This document shows positions 3,061 to 24,788 of a stretch of DNA of 24,789 bases, piece by piece (positions within the stretch are counted from its first letter, which is position 1; each line of letters starts with the position of its first letter). Where the stretch lies: the NCBI RefSeq assembly GCF_000003605.2, contig NW_003155740.1, positions 43,596-68,384 on the forward strand, given 5' to 3'. Under the pieces are notes generated by a model. It made no database searches. It saw only the letters and a list, made by a program, of their open reading frames with translations, and was not told the DNA's origin. Both the position numbers and the translations under genes were made by a program. Origin of the DNA: Saccoglossus kowalevskii. Lineage: Eukaryota; Hemichordata; Enteropneusta; Harrimaniidae.

Positions 3061-3760
3061 CAGCTTCTTCTACCAGCTTACTATAAAGGTACAGCACTTG
3101 AAGCTATGTACGATGATATTGGATATCCCGATCAAGAAAGAAATTTAGACCTACTCAGATCCCGTTTCTACTCACCGAAAATGAGTAATGACATGGAAAG
3201 CAAAGTTCGAAACTGCTACAGGTGCACACAGACGAAGATACACAGCGAAAAGATCACTGCCATTGGTAACCATTACCTCCGCTTATCCAATGGAGTTAAT
3301 GTGCATGGATTTTTTGACCCTGGAGCCAGCTAAAGGAGGCTGTAAAGATATCTTAGTGATAACAACCACTGCACCAGATATGCAGTACCTATGACAAAAA
3401 CAAAGTGCAAAGACGACAGCTGATGCAGCATTTTCTGAACCACTATGGGTTTTCTGTTCACCTTCGCTCTGACCAAGGCAGGAATTTTGAGGCAAAAGTA
3501 ATTCAGGAATTATGAGAGATGCTTGGAGTGGTTAAACCACATACTACCCCGTATCATCCCCAGGGAAATGGCCAGTGCAAGCGTTTTAACAAGACACTGA
3601 TTTACATGCTTGGTACCTTCAGTGATGAACAGAGAGAAGAGTGGAAGAAGTATGTAGATCCCATGGTTCATGCTTATAATTGCACTCGTAGTGATAGCAC
3701 TGTTTTCCTCATATTTCTTAATGTATGGTAGATATCCAAGGCTCCAGTCGATATATACCT
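3061..3760 (+). pseudogene. broken retroelement integrase
   Basis: Zinc-binding region: DDIGYPDQER, then RSRFYSPKMSND and NCYRC. Where the family has two zinc-binding His, this copy has Tyr; the two Cys remain. Core: the first Asp is at 3308-3310 in a second frame, the second Asp (SDQG) at 3471-3473 in a third frame. A TGA at 3513-3515 interrupts, and the position of the catalytic Glu is Lys (3579-3581). It is inactive on several counts. Confidence 0.9.
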
Positions 3761-12043: not shown

Positions 12044-12086
12044 TTATTGATGTTTATTTTCTGGTAATTCATATTCAGACTCATGT
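12044..12086 (-). CDS. last exon: C-terminal YELP motif and stop
   Basis: Acceptor TTTGTTTCCCCAG is strong; phase 2 in matches the preceding exon. It reads HESEYELPENKHQ and then TAA at 12046-12044. The Tyr sits in an acidic YELP context, a second YxxP. An AATAAA overlaps the stop codon. Confidence 0.75.
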
Positions 12087-15000
12087 CTGGGGAAACAAAT
12101 TTGAATAACGTTTACTTATGATATAGTACTTAATAAACCCCGAGTTTTAAAAGCGATATAGTCTCTATAGCATTGATCTAAACGACAATGTAAACTATAA
12201 TAATAATAATTATGGTATTAAGAACTATAATTATAGTAAATACTCACTCTGAATACTGTCTACAGTTGTCTGGTAGTAGCTGTCTTCGAGTTTTTCCCAA
12301 TGTTTGATAACGATCGTCTTTCTGAGCTGGAATCTCTTCATAAACTACAAATTTGTCCAGACCATAATATTATGGTATTGAAATTAATAAATTATGATAT
12401 AGCAACCAATGTCATACTAATTTGGCATTTCGAATTATTGCATTATATGCGACGTTGGTTCAAACTGAGTTTACATGTTTCCAGATGTATGAGATTTGTG
12501 TATCTCATTTGTCACCTACTCTAGTTGTGCATTTTATGTAAGATAGTTTTTCTAATTTTACAATGCAAACATATGTCATACAAACATATGTCTCGTACTA
12601 TTTGAGATTGCTTCGCTATAAGAACTACGAGAAAACTATTTCGTCGCATTATATCACCAAAAACATGCCAAATTCAAGAGGCACAGTATTGTGTTGAGAA
12701 TATTACTAGAACAAAAGTCATATTCTTTCGGTTCAATGCATGAATTAAATAATACTGAACACACAGCAATACAAACTGCGATAGTCGCAGTCTATTAAAA
12801 TAGACATATCAATTGTCTTTTATTTACATTACTGCTGAATACAGATAATTGATACCTTTCATTTCTTCTGAGTCACTCGGTTTGTCGGGAATTTCATAGC
12901 TACACACAACTCTAGTAGAACAATTGTTGAAATAAAACAGTGATAATGAATTCCATGTTTACACTTACACAAAATATATGTTATATTTTTTGGGTGAAGA
13001 TATGTTATAAAATTAAATATGTGTGTACATTATAATTAAATATGTGTACATTAGTGTAAATAAATTATATTGTTCATAATTTAAAATCAAATTTATACTA
13101 ATATCTGTGTTATGCAATGTATACATCGCGTATAATAATATATTTTTCACATTACAAAATCAGGTCAAGCACAGTAACATTATATACTTGCCGTTGTTGA
13201 TGATTATTTCTATTGTGAAATCTCCTACGACGTACAATTATTATTGACAAAACAATGAACGTTACAATTATAACAGTAACCACTCCGATTAATATTGGGA
13301 CAATATTGGTTTTGTCATCATCACCGCCAACTAGGATAAATATGTGACACAGTAGATACTATATTAGTATTAGTATTTACTTCAATACTTTCTGATTGAC
13401 CTGACTCGATTGAACGTTTGCCAACTGTGGAATTTTAGCCTACTACCAGCCATACTGTGTGTATATATAGTTGTAGCATTGTATATATTCACATTGATTT
13501 TGTTGCTATATATTCTAGTACATGTGTAATCAGCAATATTGTTTTTTTACAAACATCACAAGTATTAATAAGTTTATCAAGACAAAAAACGTCTCAAGAG
13601 AATAGTAATGTACACTATATGTCATGTACCTGTGAAAAATGCTAACCGCTCTTCTCGTAACACAATACGCTGTTCCTGAAATCAGACAAAACAAATTTGA
13701 AAAATGGAAATAACATACCCAACTGTCGATCCTTTAACAAAAGTCATATAGAGCAAGCACTTTACAAAACGATTCAAAAGAACAAAGCAAAAAAATCACC
13801 AAGTCCATTACATTTTGTAGTCAAATCAAGAGTAACGCATATGGACTGTATGGTAAACATGATAAAACTTGTTATTTTAATCTATTGCGTGACATCTATT
13901 TGCATATTTGCTTATTTTTCTTTATAGACAAGTATGTTTGAAAGTAAATATAAATACTTCGGGTAGCTCAAGTACAGTTTAGTCTTAAAAGCGCATTACT
14001 TANNNNNNNNNNNNNNNNNNNNNNNNNNNNNNNNNNNNNNNNNNNNNNNNNNNNNNNNNNNNNNNNNNNNNNNNNNNNNNNNNNNNNNNNNNNNNNNNNN
14101 NNNNNNNNNNNNNNNNNNNNNNNNNNNNNNNNNNNNNNNNNNNNNNNNNNNNNNNNNNNNNNNNNNNNNNNNNNNNNNNNNNNNNNNNNNNNNNNNNNNN
14201 NNNNNNNNNNNNNNNNNNNNNNNNNNNNNNNNNNNNNNNNNNNNNNNNNNNNNNNNNNNNNNNNNNNNNNNNNNNNNNNNNNNNNNNNNNNNNNNNNNNN
14301 NNNNNNNNNNNNNNNNNNNNNNNNNNNNNNNNNNNNNNNNNNNNNNNNNNNNNNNNNNNNNNNNNNNNNNNNNNNNNNNNNNNNNNNNNNNNNNNNNNNN
14401 NNNNNNNNNNNNNNNNNNNNNNNNNNNNNNNNNNNNNNNNNNNNNNNNNNNNNNNNNNNNNNNNNNNNNNNNNNNNNNNNNNNNNNNNNNNNNNNNNNNN
14501 NNNNNNNNNNNNNNNNNNNNNNNNNNNNNNNNNNNNNNNNNNNNNNNNNNNNNNNNNNNNNNNNNNNNNNNNNNNNNNNNNNNNNNNNNNNNTTTTCATT
14601 TCGTATTATCCAACCATAAAATTTGTTAATATTTTTTCAATTGATGATTTCTTACAGAAGTCATAAAGCAGATTTCATCAAACATTCGTGAACTGGTTTC
14701 TATAAATGCATAAATATATTGTTGATTGTTGATACAGATAAAGCAAAGCAGATGCTCTGCTAATTACGCAACCTGTTTCACACGTAAGTCTTCTGCACGA
14801 TGTTAGTTTGGACGTTCTTGTGACAAGATAAACAAGAAACATTCGTGACCATGCAACATTAGATTTTTTGAAGTCAGCGAGCAATATTTATATCTGGTGA
14901 GGAAGAGCAACTGAGTCGAATGGATAAAGTAAAATATTACCAGCCATTTAACATAAAGAAGATGTGATAAATTCGCTCACCCCTGTGGTATACACTGTTA

Positions 15001-15624
15001 AACCATCATGTATGACATATTGTTGTCCAGCTATTAATGGTTTATTATTATAACCATTATATTCCATACCATCACCCACCATAAGTTGATCAGGGATTGC
15101 ATTTAATGGAAATGATGCTGTGATGTACTGATTATCTAGTATGTCACGTCTTCTTTTAGGTATGTCTTCTTCTACTACTATGATATAGTTTCTATGTCAA
15201 ACAAAGTTTCAATTAGTGAGCATTATTGCCAGATGGCCTGATAATATTCAAGAGTTCACCATTATAAGTTTTCCTGAATAACGCATTTGCTTTGATATAC
15301 CTATACAATCGAGTGATGTACAATCATTCAAATCCCGACTCAGTATTGCATTTTAGTTCTGTTGTCTTGCCTGTAAAAAACTGTTCTATAATATCCAGTA
15401 TAGCCACATAATATCATACTTACAGTAGATTTGTATCACTCTTTATATCACTATTTTCTGCAATCGTTGCTAAATCAATTGTGGCAGTATTGTCAGTTAG
15501 GATTAGATTGCTTCTATCTCCAAGAAATGATAGAATTCCAACGAGTTTGTCTTCTATAGAAACAATTGAATGACCATTCAAACTGAAGTAACATGCAATA
15601 TAATTTGATAATACATAGCAATGC

Positions 15625-15655
<31 letters not shown>

Positions 15656-18600
15656 TAGTTATAATAATAATAATAATGTGTCAAGACGAGCGAAGCTAAA
15701 CTCAAGATGAAGATGTATCAGTAATAAGATCAGTAATGTAAGCAAAGACAAGGTTGATATTGGCCTCAAATGTTAGTTACATATATTATGGATTGACAAC
15801 AAACGAAGTTAATTTAGCATACTCAATGGTTTAAGTGTGATATAAAGTTGAGTAACATATGTACTGATTAATAATGAGAACTGTCAGTAAATCATACAAT
15901 TATATTCTACAGTATATATGAGGATTCCAACATCCATGCAAGAGCAAGTTGGTCAGTCACATATTGCATTGTTAGACTGCAAAGATTACCTTTCAATTCA
16001 GTTCCACTTATTATGTTTGACGGTTTACCAAATCCAATGGTTGTACTAGCTGTGATTGATATGTCAACCTGTGACCCTGATGGTAATGCTAGTGTATGGG
16101 AGTGTATGTAACCATTCAATGTAATATCCTTGGTCTCTGGTGTTACGGACAAGTACACTGATTCAATGACTTTGTATGTCAACTGTAAAAAAATAATATT
16201 AGTTAACCAGATAAATATAGATCATAAACAACACTCACAATTATATTATTCGTTGACATCACTTAAGTCATGATATATATTGTATTGCTTACAAATGTCA
16301 AATAAAATGACATACCCTATATTGTGTTATATTTCCTTTGTAGATGACAGGTTCAGTCCAAGACAATGTTATTGTATTAGCTGTCACTGTCAGTATTTCA
16401 ATACTTGCAGGTGGATCGGGAACTGTCAAAAAAGGGTAACGTTCCTTGTAAACTTTGTATTTCATTTGAGACACAGCAATATACTAAATATTATACTTTC
16501 AGCTTGCACATTGTGCTGAATAATTACACACATGATACGGGTAATATTGATATTGATGTCAATATCATCCACACAAAAGAAGCAAACACAACTCTGGTTT
16601 AGTAACTAAACAGAATTATCAGTGACACAAGTGAACTTCCGGCTGGTGTATATATGAATAAGACATACCTGTCTCCTGTGTGTGAACGCTCATCTCAGAA
16701 CTTGGGATGCCATACCCCACACTTGTGGAAGCAGTTATCTAGTAGTGAAACAATTTAAAATTTCTCTCATTGAAAATTAGCCAACATAAATTAAAAGCAA
16801 CCTCACCAGTCAGTCACAAAATAATAATAGTTGTACATATCGAGAGAATAGAACTAACATATATGTATACAATGTGTCTAATCGAATGTCATTTTCTTTG
16901 TAAAATAAAATTTTATTATGTGTGAGTGAATTCGGAATATATGTACAATTAACACAATCCGTACTTGTATAGAGTATACAACATCATATTCCAAGTCTGT
17001 GATCTGGTACGTCATGACATCTTTTAGATCATTCGTAATTTCCAGTGTATCAATTCTATTCTGATCATCAGTAACCCAGTACACTATCTTGTAGCTCGTT
17101 ATTCTACCATTTGTAGGTTCAGGTATCAACCATTGTGCAGTGATTGAGAACACAGCTGGAGCTAAAGTGACATTCCTTGGTTGAGATGGAACTGAAACAA
17201 ATAACGTAACAGCTACAATGAAAAACAAATACAGTTGTAAAATGAATTTTAGTTTATGCAACATGCATGTGCAAGCAGTAATTTCTGTTAGTTTTATTGA
17301 TACAAGAAAAAATCTCACCACTCTCGGCCATTCTTACAATTGCTATGCCACTAGGATCACTCTCTTCATCGCGGTTCGAAAGTAAAACTATGATGTCATA
17401 TTCTGTATAAGGTAGCAAAGTGTTATCAACAATTTCAAAATCACGAATTCCAATTGATTGACCCGTAATATAAATGATTTTGGTTTGGTAGTCATCCTCA
17501 CTGCTTGTCTTCCTAAATTTCACTTTTATTAATTCAATATATCCATTCGTACCATCGTAATTGCATTTAATATCTCTGATTGCAGGAAACTGTGGATTAG
17601 AAATATATAATAATTGAAAAGATGACTTTTTTTAGAATAAATAGAAAATACATAAATAGGAGAACATTTCATTTTGTATTGTATATTTAACTTATTGTAT
17701 ATTAAATTATTTCATATCATAATTAACATACCTGTATTTCAATAGTTATAATTGTCAATACAGTTGATGCAATATTGTTTATGGTTGGATGTTTCGGTTC
17801 TGTGAAAAAATTAAGTGTACGATGAATAATTTACTTATTATTGTTCATTTTTGCGTTTAACACAAAACAAAAAAACAATAGATATGCAACTTCAATGGTA
17901 TTTTCACACTATAAAAGATATTGAATTATATTTTATTTAGTGGTAGGTTTTTTCGATTTTGCTTGTTTCATGTTGCTAGTAGTATTGTTACAAAGAAAAC
18001 GACAATTATTACTACTTGAAACATTAATTTACAATAGACAATTTCTTTGTACAATCAAAATAATTACTAACTTGCACACATCGTAGTTGTCGTAATAGCT
18101 GTGTTTTTACTTCCTTCACCCAGTGGACCAGGTCTTTTAACTGTCACTGTAATTTCATATTCAGTAGACCACTGTAAGCCTGTGATGGTTGAACTATAAC
18201 TCATATGACTTGTATTGGTGACTGATATAACTTGTCGTGATGTCCAGACACTCTCGCCACTCTCTCTGTAATATACATGATACGATTCTATTGGTCCATC
18301 TCCAATATCTTCTTCATTGTTCCATGCTTTCCATGCGACTGTAAACTGGTCAGAATGAATAGTGTCCTCGGAAACACTTGGTTTGTTACTTTCGGAAAAT
18401 CGTGGAAGATCTAATGAGAATAGAATGGTACAGATGAATTACACAAATAAAATGTTGCGCCAATAATGCGATTCGTGATCGTTCATGTGTTCCTTGAGAA
18501 ATAATTTCATCTATTCAAGTGGAACAGTATGTATTGGTGATAGAAACAAGCCTAGGAAGACATCGCATATACACATCATGAAATTATCCGTAGAGTTTGG

Positions 18601-21600
18601 AAAATAGAATGCCATCAAGTCTAGAAGCCGAGGTTTGACTGGCTATTAGGTTTAATATCAACAGTAAATATAGAGTTGAGTAATGTTGCTTTTATAACGC
18701 GGGTCTCAAATGATTGACTGAAAGCAATGAAACTGAGTAAGTGAAAGTTGAAACAAAGCAGCGTACAGTTATCAAGTGTACGAATGGAATAAATGCATGA
18801 CCGCCTGAATGAATTCACGGAATAACAAAATGTGTCAAAAAAAGTGCGCACATGCAATACTTCTATCTAGAAACGTATAATGTGTACCAGATAAACGGCA
18901 TTGGGATTAATGGGAATGTATACCTTTTTAGAAGCAAATTATCGTTTTTGTAAACTAACCTTGTGTTATCAAACCACGAAGGACTTTTCATAGTGAAGTA
19001 GTTTTCTAAAATATTAAAAACGACTTGTTATATGAAATGTTTACCCACTCGTTAATTATTTTTAATCTAATAATTAACAAACATGCTTTATTTTATAGTA
19101 TTACAGTATTGGAATATTTTAAGGTTAATATTTCAAATTTGCATTTCACGAGCCATTTATATGTTTTAGTTCATAGCCGTTTTGTAGATTACATTTTTGA
19201 TGACATTTTTCAAATAGTTTTAAATTCGTTTGCGCACTATAGTACAATTGTGTTCTGATAGTATTTTTTGTTTAATACAAATTAGAACTTACCATATAAG
19301 TCAACCGTTATTGATGATAAAAGTCCAGTGTTTGGATAACCCACAGTAAAATGTATTCATTTTATGGATAACGATACCACTGAAATTTCCAATTGCAATG
19401 TATTTGTTTTCTGCTATATAATTGGTAGGAGAAAGATAATTGGTTGTTTCGGATTTCCATAACATCATGTCATCCGATGCTACTACTGGATTTCCACTGA
19501 ATTCACAGATAAAATAAGTATCCTCGCCAGGATTCACTTTATAGTTATAGAAGTTTCTTATATGTGGACTACCGTCTACAAAGGGAACAATTACATTTTT
19601 AAAAGGGTGATTATTTAACATGCATAAAATAAATTTAAGTTGTTGTGACTTGTTGTATGTTGTGTATGTGAAAGTAAGTAATGAATCTTATGGGATGAAT
19701 AATATTATAATGGCAATATGTGCAATATGGGCACAATAACGTAAACAATGAATGTAATATACATTATTTACACGGAATTCTATCTCGTACGGAAACATTA
19801 TATGCAATAGTTGGTTTGGTGCTTCGTCATGCATTTTCTTTCATATGAAAATATAAAAAAATCTTTCCGACACATCCAGATCCAACATACATGTGGATGC
19901 AATCCAGGCGTTCAATTAATCTCTTTAAAGTTTCTAATCCGGTGCTAAGCCCCAAATTTGTGTTTATTTGCACTACCCTGCCAGAAAATGTGTAGTCAGG
20001 TGTGATATTTGCCATTCCAAAATTGAGTGCGTTTGATGATTTTAATGTCAAACAAACTATGTGATTCACATAAAACTAATCTACCAATTCAAACTATTTA
20101 TATTGGCGACATCTGCAAAGGCGATAATCGGGCCTCCGCCACATTATTATAAACAATAATTTGACCAGGAACATATTGTTATTAGCAGACTAGGATATTA
20201 AGCATAATTTTATTTCTTTGATAGACAAGCATTACCTATACTAGTATAATATGACATAGAATTCATAATCGAGAGTACTAATATTTCGAATCATGATTCA
20301 AATTTGTAAATATCAGATTTGAATATGTGTAATATTTTGTTATAAAAGCATGCATACTGAAAGACTTTAGGTTATGCAAGTGAAAGTCGCACTTAATATG
20401 CAAAATTCAACAAGATCCACGAATAAAATTCCCATGACAATGATTATGTTTTCGTTTTCTCGTTAAGTGTTTTATAAACACGATGAATTGAGATACAACC
20501 CTTGTTGACACTCATAATCTGTAGTTTCTAGATTTATTCATCCTGGTGCACAATCTCCATTTGGACAAACACCAGTGTTCTTATCACATGCTGCATTGTT
20601 TTCACAATGACAATTATACTTACATAATTCACCATAGATACCAGTGATTTGAAATACAAACCTTGTTGACAATCAGAATCTATAGTATCTAGATTTATCC
20701 ATCCTGGTGCACAATCTCCATTTGGACAAACACCAGTGTTCTTATCACATGCTGCATTGTTTTTACAATGACAATTATAGTTACACAATTCACCATAGAA
20801 ACCAGAAATACAAGATGATGGAACTGGAATAGAAAATACAATTCTTCGACACGGGTCGGTAATTCTAATATTATCTGGACGGTTTATATATTCTTTAGTT
20901 AGTGGACGCGAATTTATATCAGAGTACATTTGGAACTATACAGAATACTTGGCTTACTCAAGTCTATATAAGTGTGCATAAATTACATGATATTTGAATT
21001 GGTGTATTTTGTGGCGGTTAATTTGGCTGGTAGTGCGCCCCTGCTTACATTTACATGGCACTTTACTGTGTTCGTGTGTTCGTAAATGTGTCGTTTCTGT
21101 GTTATTGTTGCTGTCATTTATATTGACATTCACACAGATATGTCAATAATCAAAGTAGTAAAGTAAGGCCTAGCAGCAGCACAATATGCAATATTGTGTC
21201 TAAACTTTATTGCAATTAATATATGTGCATGTATGACCTGAAACACACTAGGTTTTTATATAGAGTCATTAAACAATTGTTAGGCATAAATGTGGTACTA
21301 TACCCTTGCACTTATTACCACTCCATCCAGTGTCACAATCACCGGCACTGCTAGTACAATCCCCTTTTCTATTACATCCATTAGTACAATGACATGTCTG
21401 TGTACATCCAGCTCCATATTTTCCTAGATGGACAATCTTGTCAAAGATAAATTAAAAGAGTTTCAACATCTTCTATACTTTCTATCATGTATATGATGTA
21501 ACGTAAACATCCACATAGATGAAAAACACACAACATTCATATAGATCGGAAACACTTATCATTACATTTTGACAACAATCAGTAACACTAGATGATTTTA

Positions 21601-24600
21601 TTTAAATCCTGGATAAGATACAATGCATATGGATCGGAAACATTTAGCATAACACTGTGACAATCACCAGTACTTCTACAAGACTTTATATTCAACTTAC
21701 CTTTATTACAAATCATATAATGCAAAGCATGAACATCCATATGGATCAGAAACACACATCATAAAACTATGACAACCATCAGTACTGCTTGGTGTATTTA
21801 TTCAACTTACCTGTATTGCAATCTAATCCTGTATATGATGCAAGACATGAACATCCATATGGATCAGAAACACACATCATTTTTCCACGACAAGAATCAG
21901 TGCTACTGAGTGAACAAACTCTACCACAATCTTTTCCCCATTGCCCCCTCGAATCACAACCTGCAATGCATAGTAGTGAAACATGCACTTTATTATTATT
22001 AAAATAATATTGTTGATCTGTGATTGTAGCTGCATTGCCTAAGGATCATAATTGTGTGTGATAATTTCTCTCCGTTGCAACCAATTTGATTATTAAATTT
22101 TAGTTGTAACATTAAGTAGCAAGAAAATACAGTGCATTAAAAATGTAACTGTGACCTCGACATTCTCTGACTAAGCAAGATACTATAACAGCCTGTACAT
22201 CACCAGAAAGCTTAAATATAGCCACACAGATAATTGTTCATAGGAGTACCTGACAGCCAGTATCGATGTAAATCTTTTATACAATTTCCGACTATTGAAA
22301 ACTCATTTTTTGATTATTTAATGTTAATTTTAATATTAGCAATATGGGTAAAATTCAGAATGTTGTCAAAAGTTAAACTAGCTACTATAGCAACTTATAT
22401 ATCATCTGAAAGCTTAGACACAGTTGAATACGTTATTGCGTGGGCCTAGATCTATTTGTACTATTATTACTATTTAACATTTTTCTTCACTAGATATTGG
22501 TACCGTAAAAAGCTGGACGACTGCGTCTCGGTTTTCTTTTATTTGCTTTAGTTTCCTAGCTGCGATAAAATAATGACTGACATGTTTTCGAAAATAGGTC
22601 TGTGACTATTTTGACGTAGCTAAAAAAAAGTTGATAAAAAATTATCCTATTATCATATTACTAATTCAAGCAACAAGTAATTCGTTCGACTTATATCTTT
22701 GCCTAACTCAAGAAATGGATAACACTGCTGTTTAACAAATCAATTATGTTAAATTCACCTGCGAATTCCGGGCATTTCATATCGCACGAGAACATATATT
22801 TTTACTTAGCTGACATTGCACTGCCCTAATTTTATCTTAATAAAAATGAAATATTTACTAAAGCAATCCTAACCAATTTGCTAAAAGTTATGTAGGGGTA
22901 AAAACACTAGAAATTGACAGGTTATTGTTAAAGCGCGGTGGTCGTCGCGCAGCGCGTGTTCGAATTTCATGTAAATAAACAACGTATTATACACGCGTTG
23001 TATACGTCGCTATGAGTCCCATATCAAACAGGACGCGGCACGACGACTGTCACCCTTTAAGTGTGTGTAATCGAAATGAACAGTGTGAAATGTGAGCTAA
23101 CCATAAAAACTATTTACACGCTTTTTTACCTGTATTACATTGACTTCCTGTAAATCCTGGTGGACATATACATTTTCCAGTGTCTGAATTACATATACCT
23201 CCATTATAACATTTAGGACAGTTAAGTAAACATGTATCACCGTATTTACCATTAGGACAACCTGTAATAATCAATTAAAAACAAATACAATAAGTAACAT
23301 AGTGGTGTTTCTTGCACATATCACTCGAAGTCATATCATTAACACAACATGTCATTGATTACTTACGTCTAACAATAAGTCTCATGAAACTATTTTTTCC
23401 ATCTTGTCGTTGTTGTTGTGTAGTATAACATTCATAAATTCCAGCATCTGATGGTTTAGCTGATGTAATAGTAATACTACTGTGTCCATCCCATAATACT
23501 CTATCATCACCATTATGTTTCCATTTCAATTGTGATTCTGATATTGCCGTTGACTGTATGGTCATGGTCAGTGTTAAATCATCGCCCCAACTTACTGTCT
23601 TGGTTTGACTCTCTGGGTATATTTTCAGCTGCAATAAAACACAAGTTGTAGGATCTAGTTAGTTCAAAAATTGTTGTATGTGTGGCAATGCATGTACAAT
23701 GCTCCTTAGTTTTTAAAAGTACTATCTATAGAATATGGCATAAAAGTGTGGCGTTTGGGAAATCAATTGCTGTGGCGGTTTACTAATCTGTATATGGTAC
23801 GAATAAATGGAAACATCGGGGTTCTATGAACATAATTATATATATATATAACATCCTTTTTCAAAAATATTCATTTTCATAACTGTGTTATGTAGTAATG
23901 CAGGTCAACCCAATGTTCTTTGCTTTGAATATTGCAAAAACACAAATTGCAGCTAATATTGGCACACAAGCTTGGTAACTGATATTAAACAAACTCAAAA
24001 ATCACTAAAAAATAAAAACAATTAAACATTTAGAACACAAATCCGTCTAATAATGATGAGAAGAATAGACACATTTAGAGAAAATGTCTCTATAATAATC
24101 ATATAAGCAATATTATGATAAATGAACTAAACTATAAATACAGAAACAAAACATAGATAAAGAAAACTATTTTGAAATAATTTGAAATCTCAAGTACCAA
24201 ATTAAGAGTGAGTGCATATATTGTGTTTACTTCAATAGTTTACCATCAGACACATTATATCTGAATATTTTATTTTGAATCTATATTAATGATTTTCAAA
24301 TTCGTCATATTATTTAGATTTGCTGATGATTGCAAACAACAAAAACAGTGTTAATCTAGATGAAGCCTCCCTTCATTTAAAGAGGATTCTTTGAGTGCTA
24401 CTGACATGTTTCTTTCAATGTTATTTTCTAATGTATATTATTTAATTTTCTTATACCTCTTCAAACGGAGTAAAGAACAAATTACATCTTCTTTAGTGGT
24501 AAACAGAAAAAAACTCAATGTGATGGGTTCTATAACCATCCAAGAAGATGAAGTGAATGCAGGTCATTTTTTCTGTAGTCATTCTTGACAATCATCTTGG

Positions 24601-24788
24601 CTAGAGGAGTCGCATTGTAAAAAAAAATAAACCAGATAACACTCAAAGGAGTTGCCACACACACACACATCTGTTTCTGCTGTGCTGGTTTGATCTACTC
24701 TCCTAGTGATGGTATTTCTAAAATTTGTATTGATAAATCTGATTATTTCAGTATATACACCTGGTCTACTTGCACCTGTAGTTAACTG
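12044..24788 (-). CDS. TIE-like single-pass receptor without kinase, with ITAM-like tail (multi-exon, 5' end outside window)
   Basis: Predicted cell-surface receptor, read through 20 exons: 24788-24669, 23628-23367, 23261-23130, 21960-21811, 21423-21304, 20823-20662, 19575-19293, 18410-18072, 17799-17732, 17589-17319, 17191-16965, 16738-16669, 16422-16316, 16182-15990, 15553-15424, 15191-14981, (one presumably in the gap), 13330-13192, 12911-12856, 12344-12248, 12086-12044. Phases agree at every junction, apart from one extra base in the 19293-19575 exon and the gap. About 1,060 residues are visible. Domain order is Ig (end), Ig, EGF x4, Ig, FN3 x5, TM, tail. Seen: RLIVRRC, CICPPGF, DPYGCSC and GDGPI, which match TIE/TEK ectodomains as I know them. 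Known: TIE receptors bind angiopoietins and carry a tyrosine kinase. Inferred: this one signals through tail tyrosines instead, because the frame stops about 80 codons after the TM helix. Alternative: kinase exons used by an unseen splice form; I found none by eye down to 4.6 kb. The start codon and signal peptide lie outside the window. Confidence 0.85.
12248..12344 (-). CDS. exon: cytoplasmic ITAM-like motif
   Basis: Acceptor CAAATTTGTAG, 97 bases, phase 1 in, phase 2 out (GA|GTGAGT, a strong donor). It encodes YEEI, seven residues (PAQKDDR), YQTL, then a basic KTRRQLL and a further Tyr. YxxI/L-x(6-8)-YxxI/L is the ITAM consensus. In immune receptors the doubly phosphorylated motif recruits tandem-SH2 kinases of the Syk/ZAP-70 type. 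pYEEI is also the classic preferred ligand of Src-family SH2 domains. Function here is inferred from the motif only. Confidence 0.8.
12856..12911 (-). CDS. exon: juxtamembrane tail with a YEIP motif
   Basis: Acceptor GTTCTACTAG, 56 bases, phase 2 in, phase 1 out (G|GTATCA). It encodes VVCSYEIPDKPSDSEEMK, acidic and Ser-rich with one YxxP motif. It is open only in the phase given by the GC donor of the TM exon. It is short, so confidence rests on the phase match on both sides. Confidence 0.7.
13192..13330 (-). CDS. exon: transmembrane helix and stop-transfer
   Basis: Acceptor TTTATCCTAG, phase 1. After GGDDDKTN comes a strongly hydrophobic helix of about 23 residues (IVPILIGVVTVIIV and onwards to IIIV), then RRRRFHNRNN, the typical positive stop-transfer placing the C terminus in the cytosol. 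Two donors are possible. GC at 13191-13190 (context G|GCAAGT) leaves phase 2 and fits the next exon. GT at 13187-13186 leaves phase 0 and does not. Confidence 0.9.
13331..14980 (-). other. intronic region around the gap
   Basis: Sequence at 13331-14002 and 14593-14980 shows no exon that satisfies the needed phase (0 in, 1 out). A plus-strand ORF at 13697-13927 ends in a hydrophobic stretch but lacks gene context. Confidence 0.55.
14003..14592. other. assembly gap (590 N)
   Basis: The gap lies in the intron region between FN3 domain 5 (out in phase 0) and the TM exon (in at phase 1). At least one exon with phase 0 in and phase 1 out is therefore unseen. The bases next to its left edge read TAAGTAATG on the minus strand, which would complete a strong donor if the first N is a G. 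Confidence 0.95.
14981..15553 (-). CDS. exons: FN3 domain 5, membrane-proximal, phosphatase-receptor type (15553-15424 and 15191-14981)
   Basis: First exon: acceptor TGTTTCTATAG, 130 bases, phase 1 in, phase 2 out (CT|GTAAGT). Second exon: acceptor TTGACATAG, 211 bases, phase 2 in, phase 0 out (GGG|GTGAGC). The join gives NYIIVVEED followed by a basic KRRR, then FPLNAIPD, MVGDG and NNKPLIAGQQYVI. The IVVEE strand, the basic cluster and the later GDG...Y...PL...Y order are what I know from the juxtamembrane FN3 of receptor tyrosine phosphatases, where that site may be cleaved by furin-like proteases. The last strands are missing and probably lie in the gap. Confidence 0.8.
15625..15677. repeat. 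(AAT)n microsatellite
   Basis: Two nearly uninterrupted AAT runs (15625-15654 and 15660-15676), separated by a TATAGTT interruption, lie in the intron between FN3 domains 4 and 5. Confidence 0.95.
15990..16422 (-). CDS. exons: FN3 domain 4 (16422-16316 and 16182-15990)
   Basis: The first exon (107 bases, phase 1 in, phase 0 out) reads PDPPASIEIL, ITLSWTEP, NITQYR. The second (193 bases, phase 0 in, phase 1 out) begins LTYKVIES and ends DISITASTTIGFGKPSN. These are standard FN3 landmarks: strand-B Trp, strand-C Tyr and the ITAST-x-GFG turn. Donor of the second exon is G|GTAATC. Confidence 0.9.
16669..17191 (-). CDS. exons: FN3 domain 3 (17191-16965 and 16738-16669)
   Basis: The first exon (227 bases, phase 1 in, phase 0 out) has PSQPRNVTL, ITAQWLIPEP, ITSYKIVYW and the strand-F YDVVYSIQ. 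The second (70 bases, phase 0 in, phase 1 out) closes the domain with ITASTSVGYGIPSSEM. Acceptors are TTATTTGTTTCAG and TTTCACTACTAG; donors CAA|GTACGG and G|GTATGT. This is a canonical FN3. Confidence 0.9.
17319..17799 (-). CDS. exons: FN3 domain 2 (17799-17732 and 17589-17319)
   Basis: Two exons make one FN3 domain. The first (68 bases, phase 1 in, phase 0 out) ends at CAG|GTATGT. The second (271 bases, phase 0 in, phase 1 out) starts after CTAATCCACAG and ends G|GTGAGA. It carries KVKFRKTSSEDD (strand C and loop) and LLPYTEYDIIV (strand F Tyr motif). The intron splits the domain in phase 0, as it does for FN3 domains 3 and 4. Confidence 0.85.
18072..18410 (-). CDS. exon: FN3 domain 1 (TIE-like)
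   Basis: A single exon encodes the whole domain, phase 1 to phase 1, 113 codons; acceptor TTCTCATTAG, donor A|GTTAGT. FN3 landmarks are FTVAWKAW (strand B Trp), YHVYYRE (strand C) and LQWSTEYEITV (strand F Tyr). GDGPIES and VTN, then TEYE and GEGS, fall in the same order as in the first FN3 of TIE2 (GDGPI, VTN, TEYE, GEG). Confidence 0.9.
18411..20494 (-). other. introns flanking the third Ig exon
   Basis: 19576-20494 (after the EGF4 duplicate) and 18411-19292 hold no further exon: the neighbouring exons already join in matching phase 1. An 80-codon minus-strand ORF at 19827-20069 has no domain pattern and is not annotated as coding. Confidence 0.6.
19293..19575 (-). CDS. exon: Ig-like domain between EGF and FN3 modules (one-base frameshift)
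   Basis: Acceptor CCCTTTGTAG, donor G|GTAAGT, both in phase 1. The frame opens with an Ig-like pattern: FICEFSGNP, MLWKSE, and NTFYC as strand F. After that Cys the incoming frame hits a TGA, while the frame offset by one continues to GLLSSITVDLYG and exits in phase 1. The exon is 283 bases (3n+1), although its bounding phases require 3n. One surplus base near the GGG at about 19340 explains this. It may be a sequencing or assembly error, a polymorphism or a true lesion. TIE2 also has an Ig domain between EGF and FN3. Confidence 0.8.
20495..20650 (-). pseudogene. broken recent duplicate of the EGF4 exon
   Basis: This stretch repeats the 20662-20815 exon almost base for base from the CHC motif to CAACAAG. 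The conserved Trp codon of CAPGW is TGA here, the donor region is altered by an extra G, and no good acceptor separates it from the functional copy. Reading through from EGF4 would be out of frame. It appears to be a recent tandem duplicate that has already lost coding capacity, left in the EGF4-Ig intron. Confidence 0.85.
20662..20823 (-). CDS. exon: EGF-like module 4
   Basis: Phase 1 to phase 1, 54 codons. The acceptor GTATTTTCTATTCCAG has a good pyrimidine tract; the donor is CAAG|GTTTGT. Peptide landmarks are SGFYGELC, NYNCHC, NNAACDKNTG and CAPGW. The open frame continues upstream of the acceptor to 20929, but that part is read as intron because the phase-1 acceptor fits the preceding exon exactly. 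TIE2 has three such modules before its next Ig; this gene has four. Confidence 0.85.
21304..21423 (-). CDS. exon: EGF-like module 3
   Basis: Phase 1 to phase 1, 40 codons. Acceptor TCCATCTAG, donor G|GTATAG. Cysteine spacing fits an EGF-like module (CTQTCHC, then a Cys-rich stretch, then GWSGNKC). It lies downstream of the degenerate EGF2 copies in transcription direction. Confidence 0.85.
21480..21795 (-). repeat. degenerate tandem copies of the EGF2 exon 3' half
   Basis: The block around CATCCATATGGATCAGAAAC (plus strand) in the functional exon at 21852 recurs at 21734 and, more diverged, near 21626, 21538 and 21512. Spacings are about 118, 112, 88 and 26 bases. The copy at about 21694-21795 keeps the splice donor context (GTAAGTTGAA on the minus strand) but has lost the 5' half and has two stop codons just before that donor. 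The older copies have lost the coding pattern. I read them as decayed exon duplicates inside the EGF2-EGF3 intron. Confidence 0.85.
21811..21960 (-). CDS. exon: EGF-like module 2 (TIE-type, DPYGCSC)
   Basis: Phase 1 to phase 1, 50 codons, donor G|GTAAGTTG. It holds the motif SDPYGCSC with flanking MMC and GLDC. The second EGF-like module of TIE2 has the same DPYGCSC core, and I regard this as the most specific sign of TIE kinship in the window. The 3' half of this exon is repeated several times in the following intron (see the degenerate copies at 21480-21795). Confidence 0.9.
21961..23129 (-). other. intron between EGF1 and EGF2, with a CpG-rich islet
   Basis: Mostly AT-rich. Bases 22930-23050 stand out by many CpG dinucleotides (GCGCGG, CGTCGCGCAGCGCG, ACACGCGTTG, GACGCGGCACGACGAC). 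No exon is recognised inside. Confidence 0.65.
23130..23261 (-). CDS. exon: EGF-like module 1
   Basis: Phase 1 to phase 1, 44 codons, acceptor TTATTACAG, donor G|GTAAAA. Eight cysteines are spaced as in laminin/TIE-type EGF modules, with GGIC, CICPPGF and TGSQC as landmarks. CICPPGF followed by Gly and Cys is nearly the same as in the first EGF of TIE2. The first residue is split with the Ig exon and reads Arg, giving the RRC joint. Confidence 0.9.
23367..23628 (-). CDS. exon: Ig-like domain before the EGF modules
   Basis: Acceptor TTTTATTGCAG, donor C|GTAAGT; phase 0 in, phase 1 out; about 87 codons. The fold is read from a strand-C Trp (LKWKHNG) and the strand-F motif DAGIYEC. It ends in RLIVRR, whose following Cys comes from the next exon; the same RLIVRRC joint links Ig and EGF1 in vertebrate TIE2. 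The usual strand-B Cys is not seen (the TLTMTI segment occupies that place), so the canonical disulfide may be absent. Confidence 0.85.
23629..24668 (-). other. intron between the first two visible exons
   Basis: About 1 kb of AT-rich sequence. A 65-codon plus-strand ORF at 24391-24588 has no recognisable features. The intron ends in TTTTATTGCAG. Confidence 0.7.
24656..24669. repeat. (CA)7 microsatellite at a splice donor
   Basis: Seven CA units on the plus strand. On the minus strand the GT run starts at the exon end (GAT|GTGTGT...), so the repeat supplies the 5' splice site of the first visible exon. Confidence 0.9.
24669..24788 (-). CDS. exon: end of the first Ig-like domain (partial at window edge)
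   Basis: Forty open codons run from the window edge to a donor after GAT at 24669, in phase 0, which fits the next exon. A CAG at 24788-24786 could be the acceptor, so the exon may begin at 24785. The peptide includes GVYTEIIRF and ends TSTAETD. In TIE2 an N-terminal Ig-like domain precedes the Ig that joins the EGF modules, and this segment sits in the equivalent place. There are no cysteines, so the Ig assignment rests mainly on position. The donor is the first GT of a microsatellite. Confidence 0.6.

Follow-up and report, generated by a model that had tools for sequence, protein, structure and literature searches.

A candidate enzyme-less receptor of Saccoglossus kowalevskii with a TIE-like head, a phosphatase-receptor-type stalk and an ITAM in its tail

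Results

A 20-exon receptor gene on the minus strand

The window analyzed here is a stretch of 24,789 nucleotides (nt) from the hemichordate Saccoglossus kowalevskii (RefSeq assembly GCF_000003605.2, contig NW_003155740.1; C4507:43596-68384 in the 572-Mb, 4,830-contig genome that we searched), and our subject is a receptor gene on its minus strand. Cutting exons at splice sites, we read a chain of 20 exons from 23628 down to 12044 that encodes, in this order, an immunoglobulin (Ig) domain, four EGF domains, a second Ig domain, about four fibronectin type III (FN3) domains, a membrane-proximal domain, a transmembrane (TM) helix and a tail of 78 residues. A reading made earlier from the letters alone (the sequence-only reading) had described an Ig-EGF-Ig-FN3-TM chain. 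Its order stands, but it was incomplete: there are four EGF exons and about four FN3 domains, spread over seven exons, and a two-exon membrane-proximal domain of the receptor protein tyrosine phosphatase (RPTP) type precedes the TM exon. The exons and the features within them are as follows, with the intron phases at which each exon is entered and left.

23367..23628, minus strand: Ig1 exon, phase 0 in and 1 out; Ig_3 at E 1.2e-7; partial alignment to the TIE2 Ig that precedes the EGFs
23130..23261, minus strand: EGF1 exon, phase 1-1; EGF_2 just above the cut-off; aligned to TIE2
21811..21960, minus strand: EGF2 exon, phase 1-1; DPYGCSC stretch common to TIE2
21304..21436, minus strand: EGF3 exon, phase 1 in; frame slip near the start, or an inner acceptor, catctag
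20662..20823, minus strand: EGF4 exon, phase 1-1
19293..19575, minus strand: Ig2 exon, phase 1 in; frame slip right after FYC
18072..18410, minus strand: FN1 exon, phase 1-1; like a DSCAM FN3, below the cut-off
17732..17799, minus strand: FN2a exon, phase 1-0
17319..17589, minus strand: FN2b exon, phase 0-1
16965..17191, minus strand: FN3a exon, phase 1-0; best fn3 stretch
16669..16738, minus strand: FN3b exon, phase 0-1
16316..16422, minus strand: FN4a exon, phase 1-0
15990..16182, minus strand: FN4b exon, phase 0-1
15424..15553, minus strand: JM1 exon, phase 1-2; first part of the predicted RPTP-type membrane-proximal domain
14981..15191, minus strand: JM2 exon, phase 2-0; second part of that domain
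15146..15157, minus strand: basic stretch KRRR, within JM2
14003..14592, no strand: run of 590 Ns between JM2 and the 46-nt exon
13630..13675, minus strand: 46-nt exon, EQRIVLREERLAFFT, phase 0-1; length and phase equal in contig C4521
13192..13330, minus strand: TM exon, phase 1-2, GC donor
12856..12911, minus strand: tail exon t1, 56 nt, phase 2-1; length and phase equal in C4521
12248..12344, minus strand: tail exon t2, 97 nt, phase 1-2; carries the ITAM; length and phase equal in C4521
12298..12342, minus strand: immunoreceptor tyrosine-based activation motif (ITAM) YEEIPAQKDDRYQTL, YxxI x7 YxxL, within t2
12044..12086, minus strand: tail exon t3; contains YELP and the stop codon
12043..12048, minus strand: AATAAA over the stop codon

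Judged by exon length, the phases agree at 17 of the 19 junctions, one of which (JM2 to the 46-nt exon) spans the N run, and 18 of the 20 exons are open in their assigned frames, much as the sequence-only reading had said of splice sites and phases. The two remaining exons, EGF3 and Ig2, hold one frame slip each, and the two discordant junctions, EGF3-EGF4 and Ig2-FN1, are discordant for this reason; they agree once the slips are allowed for. An inner acceptor within EGF3 also restores the EGF3-EGF4 phase, and, by eye, both exons have weaker alternative splice sites that could preserve the frame. The TM exon ends at 13192, as had been proposed, at an unusual GC donor (CG/GCAAGT). A GT donor ending the exon at 13188 was rejected, since it gives the wrong phase for t1 while the GC donor fits, and the GC donor is further supported by the TM exons of two paralogous copies (contigs C4521 and C2565), which have GT donors and the same end phase, 2. 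The frame then closes at a stop codon 78 residues past the membrane helix, close to the 80 codons estimated earlier. The N run probably hides one exon, and a donor-like taagta lies at its edge on the minus strand. The first exon or exons of the receptor, with the signal peptide, were not found in the readable sequence.

The ectodomain joins a TIE-like head to an RPTP-type stalk

A phmmer search of the Protein Data Bank (PDB) with the Ig-EGF-Ig head placed three TIE2 chains on top (2gy5, 9lv4 and 4k0v; E 6.5e-37 to 2.1e-34), followed by the next match at E 2.2e-6, and thus bears out the earlier assignment of a TIE-type head. Pfam scores only Ig1 and EGF1 within the head, plus three fn3 stretches; Ig2 and EGF2-4 are named from the TIE2 alignment.

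The membrane-proximal end of the ectodomain points elsewhere. For the FN3 part, compared with whole PDB chains, LAR (3.4e-24) and PTPRM (1.2e-22) are the best matches after TIE2. This part also matches titin, Dscam, neogenin and contactins and, weakly, the TIE2 FN3 chains 5mya (1.1e-6) and 5utk (1.3e-6), and because these matches are unspecific, the FN3 domains alone cannot separate the TIE from the RPTP family. With a query running from FN4 to JM2, the first two places go to titin chains, whose weak FN3 matches add up, and PTPRM comes next at 4.9e-11. A profile built from four JM2 copies retrieved PTPRM (9.8e-9 and 4.9e-8), PTPRD (3.5e-5) and, up to E 0.1, otherwise one chain at chance level (0.058). 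Against Pfam, JM2 scores 22.8 bits with Fn3_PTPRU, under the cut-off of 24.7. Judged by its sequence, the membrane-proximal domain is of the RPTP type, and the ectodomain is predicted to be a TIE head on an RPTP-type membrane-proximal end. The KRRR stretch of JM2 sits where RPTPs are cut by furin-type proteases; the C4521 copy has KRKR at the same position.

The gene thus shares features with two receptor families and differs from both. Like TIE1 and TIE2 (TEK), it has an Ig-EGF-EGF-EGF-Ig head that can be aligned to TIE2, with DPYGCSC in common, and its first FN3 domains match 5mya weakly. However, it has four EGF exons, about four FN3 domains and an ITAM tail in which no kinase was found, and whereas TIE receptors have three FN3 domains directly before the TM helix, here a membrane-proximal domain lies between the two. 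With type IIA and IIB RPTPs (LAR, PTPRD, PTPRM and PTPRU) it shares FN3 repeats and a membrane-proximal domain, here with a basic stretch, but it has a TIE-like head, and no protein tyrosine phosphatase (PTP) domain was found in the window. Since the membrane-proximal domain appears to be of the RPTP type, an enzyme that was lost need not have been a kinase, and loss of the kinase from a TIE receptor is just one possible history among others.

Paralogous copies include head exons upstream of a phosphatase

Searching the genome with the Ig1-EGF head, with all 64 candidates scored, gave 47 matches at E 0.1 or lower; the weaker ones among them are ordinary EGFs. Outside the window, contigs C1567, C772, C4269 and C2565 carry Ig1 exons of 68-84% identity; other head or FN exons are present on C1385, C3108, C4194 and C4521. 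The minus strand of C772 carries EGF2 (137.7 kb), EGF4, Ig2, FN1 (128.5 kb) and FN2b (119.9 kb). Downstream of FN2b there is a cytoplasmic exon at 102.6 kb that is entered in phase 2 and left in phase 1, like t1, and next a phase-1 exon with a stretch that by eye resembles the RPTP juxtamembrane wedge. PTP exons follow from 98.9 to 91.7 kb; when joined, their pieces reach 1.2e-46 against Y_phosphatase, and their best matches are RPTP alpha, sigma and LAR. The region from 103.3 to 105 kb consists of Ns, and read stretches flank 105-119.9 kb. It is plausible that the TIE-like head exons and the PTP form one gene; no JM2-like match was found on C772 among matches up to E 10. The sequence-only reading had taken a TIE kinase as the missing part. 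That view does not hold up well beside the RPTP-type membrane-proximal domain and this relative upstream of a PTP.

Three further observations concern these copies. Reverse-transcriptase-like open reading frames, by eye of the long interspersed nuclear element type, lie at C772:94-97 kb between the first and the later PTP exons. At C3279:101913-102522, several overlapping tandem copies of part of the JM2 exon come after that exon and reach the contig end. C2565 has a second FN3a-FN4-JM2 set after its first JM2 (127-138 kb), with no TM exon between them by eye, which suggests either a stalk duplicated within one gene or a headless neighbor.

No kinase or phosphatase was found behind the tail

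Using tblastn with kinase and PTP queries of this genome, we found no tyrosine kinase (TK) or PTP in the window, including the 12 kb beyond the tail, and none in the 15.7 kb beyond the C4521 tail or the roughly 4.6 kb beyond the C2565 tail; the same queries recovered other kinase and PTP loci of this genome in the same runs. The absence of a kinase from the predicted receptor, claimed before, is in line with these searches, and a TIE kinase spliced in nearby was rejected on the same result. The PTP profile PF00102 has 47 matches genome-wide (61 of 61 candidates scored), none of them on C4507, C4521, C3279 or C2565. Among at least 158 matches to the kinase profile PF07714 (142 of 521 candidates scored), those listed on C4507 lie only at 402, 422 and 464 kb. 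With a human TIE2 kinase sequence, searched exon-wise and with 131 of 208 candidates scored, at least 35 kinase matches reached E 1e-8 or better, and among those listed none is on a contig carrying TIE-like head exons.

One might still suppose that the enzyme-less transcript is one isoform of several, with other transcripts joining this ectodomain to kinase or phosphatase exons below the window. The downstream search at this locus reached as far as the window's own 12 kb, and on C772 TIE-head exons do lie upstream of a PTP, behind cytoplasmic exons whose phases (2-1, then 1) are like those of the window gene. Set against this are the lack of any TK or PTP match 12 kb past the window tail or 15.7 kb past the C4521 tail and the AATAAA at the stop codon, and we regard such isoforms as very improbable.

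Several candidates were examined and set aside. C3461, considered as a TIE-type kinase sibling, has FN3a-like pieces (53 and 50%) 26 kb upstream of TK exons; these exons match EGFR, RET and FGFR1 best in the PDB, and no link was found. On C455, kinase exons and one weak EGF match lie on opposite strands. Five non-PTP reading frames of locus L025 that match locus L033 (C3279) at 45-74% are a tandem repeat. Separately, short kinase exons 65-72% identical to the TIE2 activation segment occur on C1372, C2390, C665, C1501, C4445 and others; they seem to belong to an expanded family of receptor kinases whose contigs lack TIE-like heads.

The tail carries an ITAM shared with a paralogue

The 78 residues behind the helix include five tyrosines and a canonical ITAM, YEEIPAQKDDRYQTL, which has the form YxxI/L-x6-8-YxxI/L. 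C4521 has the same exons behind the same stalk (46-nt, TM, t1 of 56 nt and t2 of 97 nt) in identical phases, then two further exons, and its tail shows three ITAM spacings: YGEIQKKENDHYQDL and YQDLGDVQENNYEEL, which have one YQDL in common, and YQDLQSVQESQYQSL. Over t1 and t2, an ungapped comparison of 51 residues between the window and C4521 finds 12 identical, including both tyrosines and both I/L residues at +3. An ITAM arises in 0.3% of 20,000 shuffles of the window tail and in 0.6% for C4521, and the chance that the ITAM positions are kept would be 0.002 if the 12 identities fell randomly; these tests followed sight of the motif and alignment and are descriptive. The C3279 copy runs off the contig end before the TM exon. 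Of the three family tails that can be read, two have a canonical ITAM, and all three reach a stop codon without an enzyme.

YxxI/L is also a sorting signal recognized by AP2, and the protein could be a decoy or co-receptor with a nonsignaling tail, its tyrosines incidental or concerned with trafficking only. Such a role would suit a short, fast-evolving tail and the degenerate motif of the C2565 copy. It sits less easily with the seven-residue spacing between the two YxxI/L of the window copy, with the same spacing in three C4521 pairs, and with a YxxI/L pair that is kept while most of the tail is not; we think it quite unlikely. The sequence-only reading had offered a decoy, a co-receptor or borrowed kinases. 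Because the tail holds an ITAM kept in a paralogue, we favor the last of these.

Selection and integrity of the window copy

Pooled over the ectodomain and TM exons, the ratio of nonsynonymous to synonymous substitution rates (dN/dS) is 0.34 against C4521 (611 codons), 0.27 against C3279 (453 codons) and 0.21 against C2565 (776 codons), with dS of 1.0 to 1.8; these values include nonhomologous pairings in the C4521 rows for EGF1, EGF3 and FN3a. The t1 and t2 rows were mispaired in the exon-wise comparison, and the tail was recomputed separately. Both frame slips of the window copy lie where a paralogue is in frame, as is the C2565 homologue of EGF3, and a slip is also present in C4521, in FN4b. 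Either assembly error or early decay may account for the slips.

These slips, the 590-base gap and degenerate exon copies beside EGF2 and EGF4 could mark a recently dying gene, that is, a copy of an ITAM or RPTP-type receptor that is starting to decay while its paralogues work. That would be hard to square with 18 of 20 exons open and splice sites in place, with low dN/dS and with an intact tail, and the slip of the same kind in FN4b of C4521 is equally compatible with assembly indels. We consider a dying gene unlikely, and the gene is probably not the plain truncated pseudogene that had already been thought the lesser possibility.

The degenerate copies, recognized by eye, correspond to the EGF2 and EGF4 exon ends and lie at 21480-21780 and about 20530-20640, the latter with a stop. 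EGF4 (20662-20823) is 96% identical in protein to C2565:142000-142158, with dS of 0.23 against a pooled value of 1.8 for the pair, a pattern suggestive of gene conversion or of recent copying of the exon. C772 and C4194 also have EGF4 in tandem copies.

Discussion

We think it probable, on sequence evidence, that this gene, a member of a family, encodes a receptor that lacks an enzyme domain, combines a TIE head and an RPTP-type stalk with an ITAM tail, and borrows kinases of the Src and Syk types. As a type I membrane receptor, it would bind a ligand or adhere through its TIE-like head, and its membrane-proximal domain would perhaps be clipped at KRRR, the halves staying together as in RPTPs. 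Once a ligand or a neighboring cell clustered the head, both YxxI/L tyrosines could be phosphorylated by a Src-family kinase, and a Syk- or Shark-like kinase with tandem SH2 domains would dock on the phosphorylated ITAM and signal. The YEIP and YELP sites may serve as extra SH2 docks.

Several points weigh against this proposal. The window copy has two frame slips and a 590-base gap, and KRRR is absent from both C2565 copies. The C2565 tail motif, YEDLRDTDVNIYDIA, has alanine in place of I/L in its second half and is a noncanonical near-ITAM, in a copy whose TM, t1 and t2 exons were placed by eye and phase. Over t1 and t2, the proportions of nonsynonymous and synonymous differences (pN/pS) stand at 0.63 against C4521, so the tail is evolving fast, and the motif tests given above were post hoc. 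A human SYK tandem-SH2 query retrieved three SH2-like matches among 10 candidates, at 36-38% identity, one of them (C1469) upstream of kinase exons on the same strand, and this search of the genome yielded no clear Syk orthologue.

The receptor is a new combination of known parts, and in the open-access PubMed Central literature we found no TIE-headed or RPTP-stalked ITAM receptor described. ITAM signaling is best known from vertebrate immune receptors. The engulfment receptors Draper, MEGF10 and CED-1 have an EMI domain and an EGF-only ectodomain. The window gene, which we liken to them by architecture only, differs in its Ig and FN3 domains and its RPTP-type stalk, and Pfam finds neither an EMI nor a sushi domain in its readable part. 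What it shares with them is a receptor without an enzyme but with an ITAM, as in the Src-ITAM-Shark pathway: according to PMC4503800, Drosophila Src42A phosphorylates the Draper ITAM and Shark, of the Syk type, docks there. PMC12065747 describes other invertebrate membrane receptors with such tails, namely, immunoreceptor tyrosine-based inhibitory motif (ITIM) and hemITAM tails in Botryllus, including Fester co-receptors, and ITAM/ITIM allorecognition candidates in Hydractinia. According to the same paper, the Fester co-receptor ectodomain differs, consisting of a V-Ig domain, sushi and two C2-Ig domains.

How the family arose can be put forward only tentatively, and we hold the following to be possible rather than probable. 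Within a family of RPTPs with TIE-like heads, some members may have lost the phosphatase and turned their cytoplasmic exons into an ITAM, leaving a paired, opposing recognition family with one ectodomain, expanded in this animal. If so, the same kind of ectodomain would either remove phosphate (C772 type) or recruit kinases (window type). A gene family with ITAMs on a TIE head and RPTP stalk would be a new entry to the interconversion of enzyme-bearing and ITAM receptors and would allow the balance of kinase versus phosphatase among such receptors to be tested in one animal.

Other features of the window

Outside the receptor gene, a stretch at 24579-24788 on the minus strand, RPGVYTEIIRFINTNF, has no Pfam match and resembles by eye the C terminus of a trypsin-like protease; its place would be upstream of the receptor, with which it shares the strand. 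Broken pieces of a long terminal repeat retroelement occupy 3061-3731 on the plus strand, with Integrase_H2C2 at E 1.4e-9 and a weak integrase core below the cut-off.

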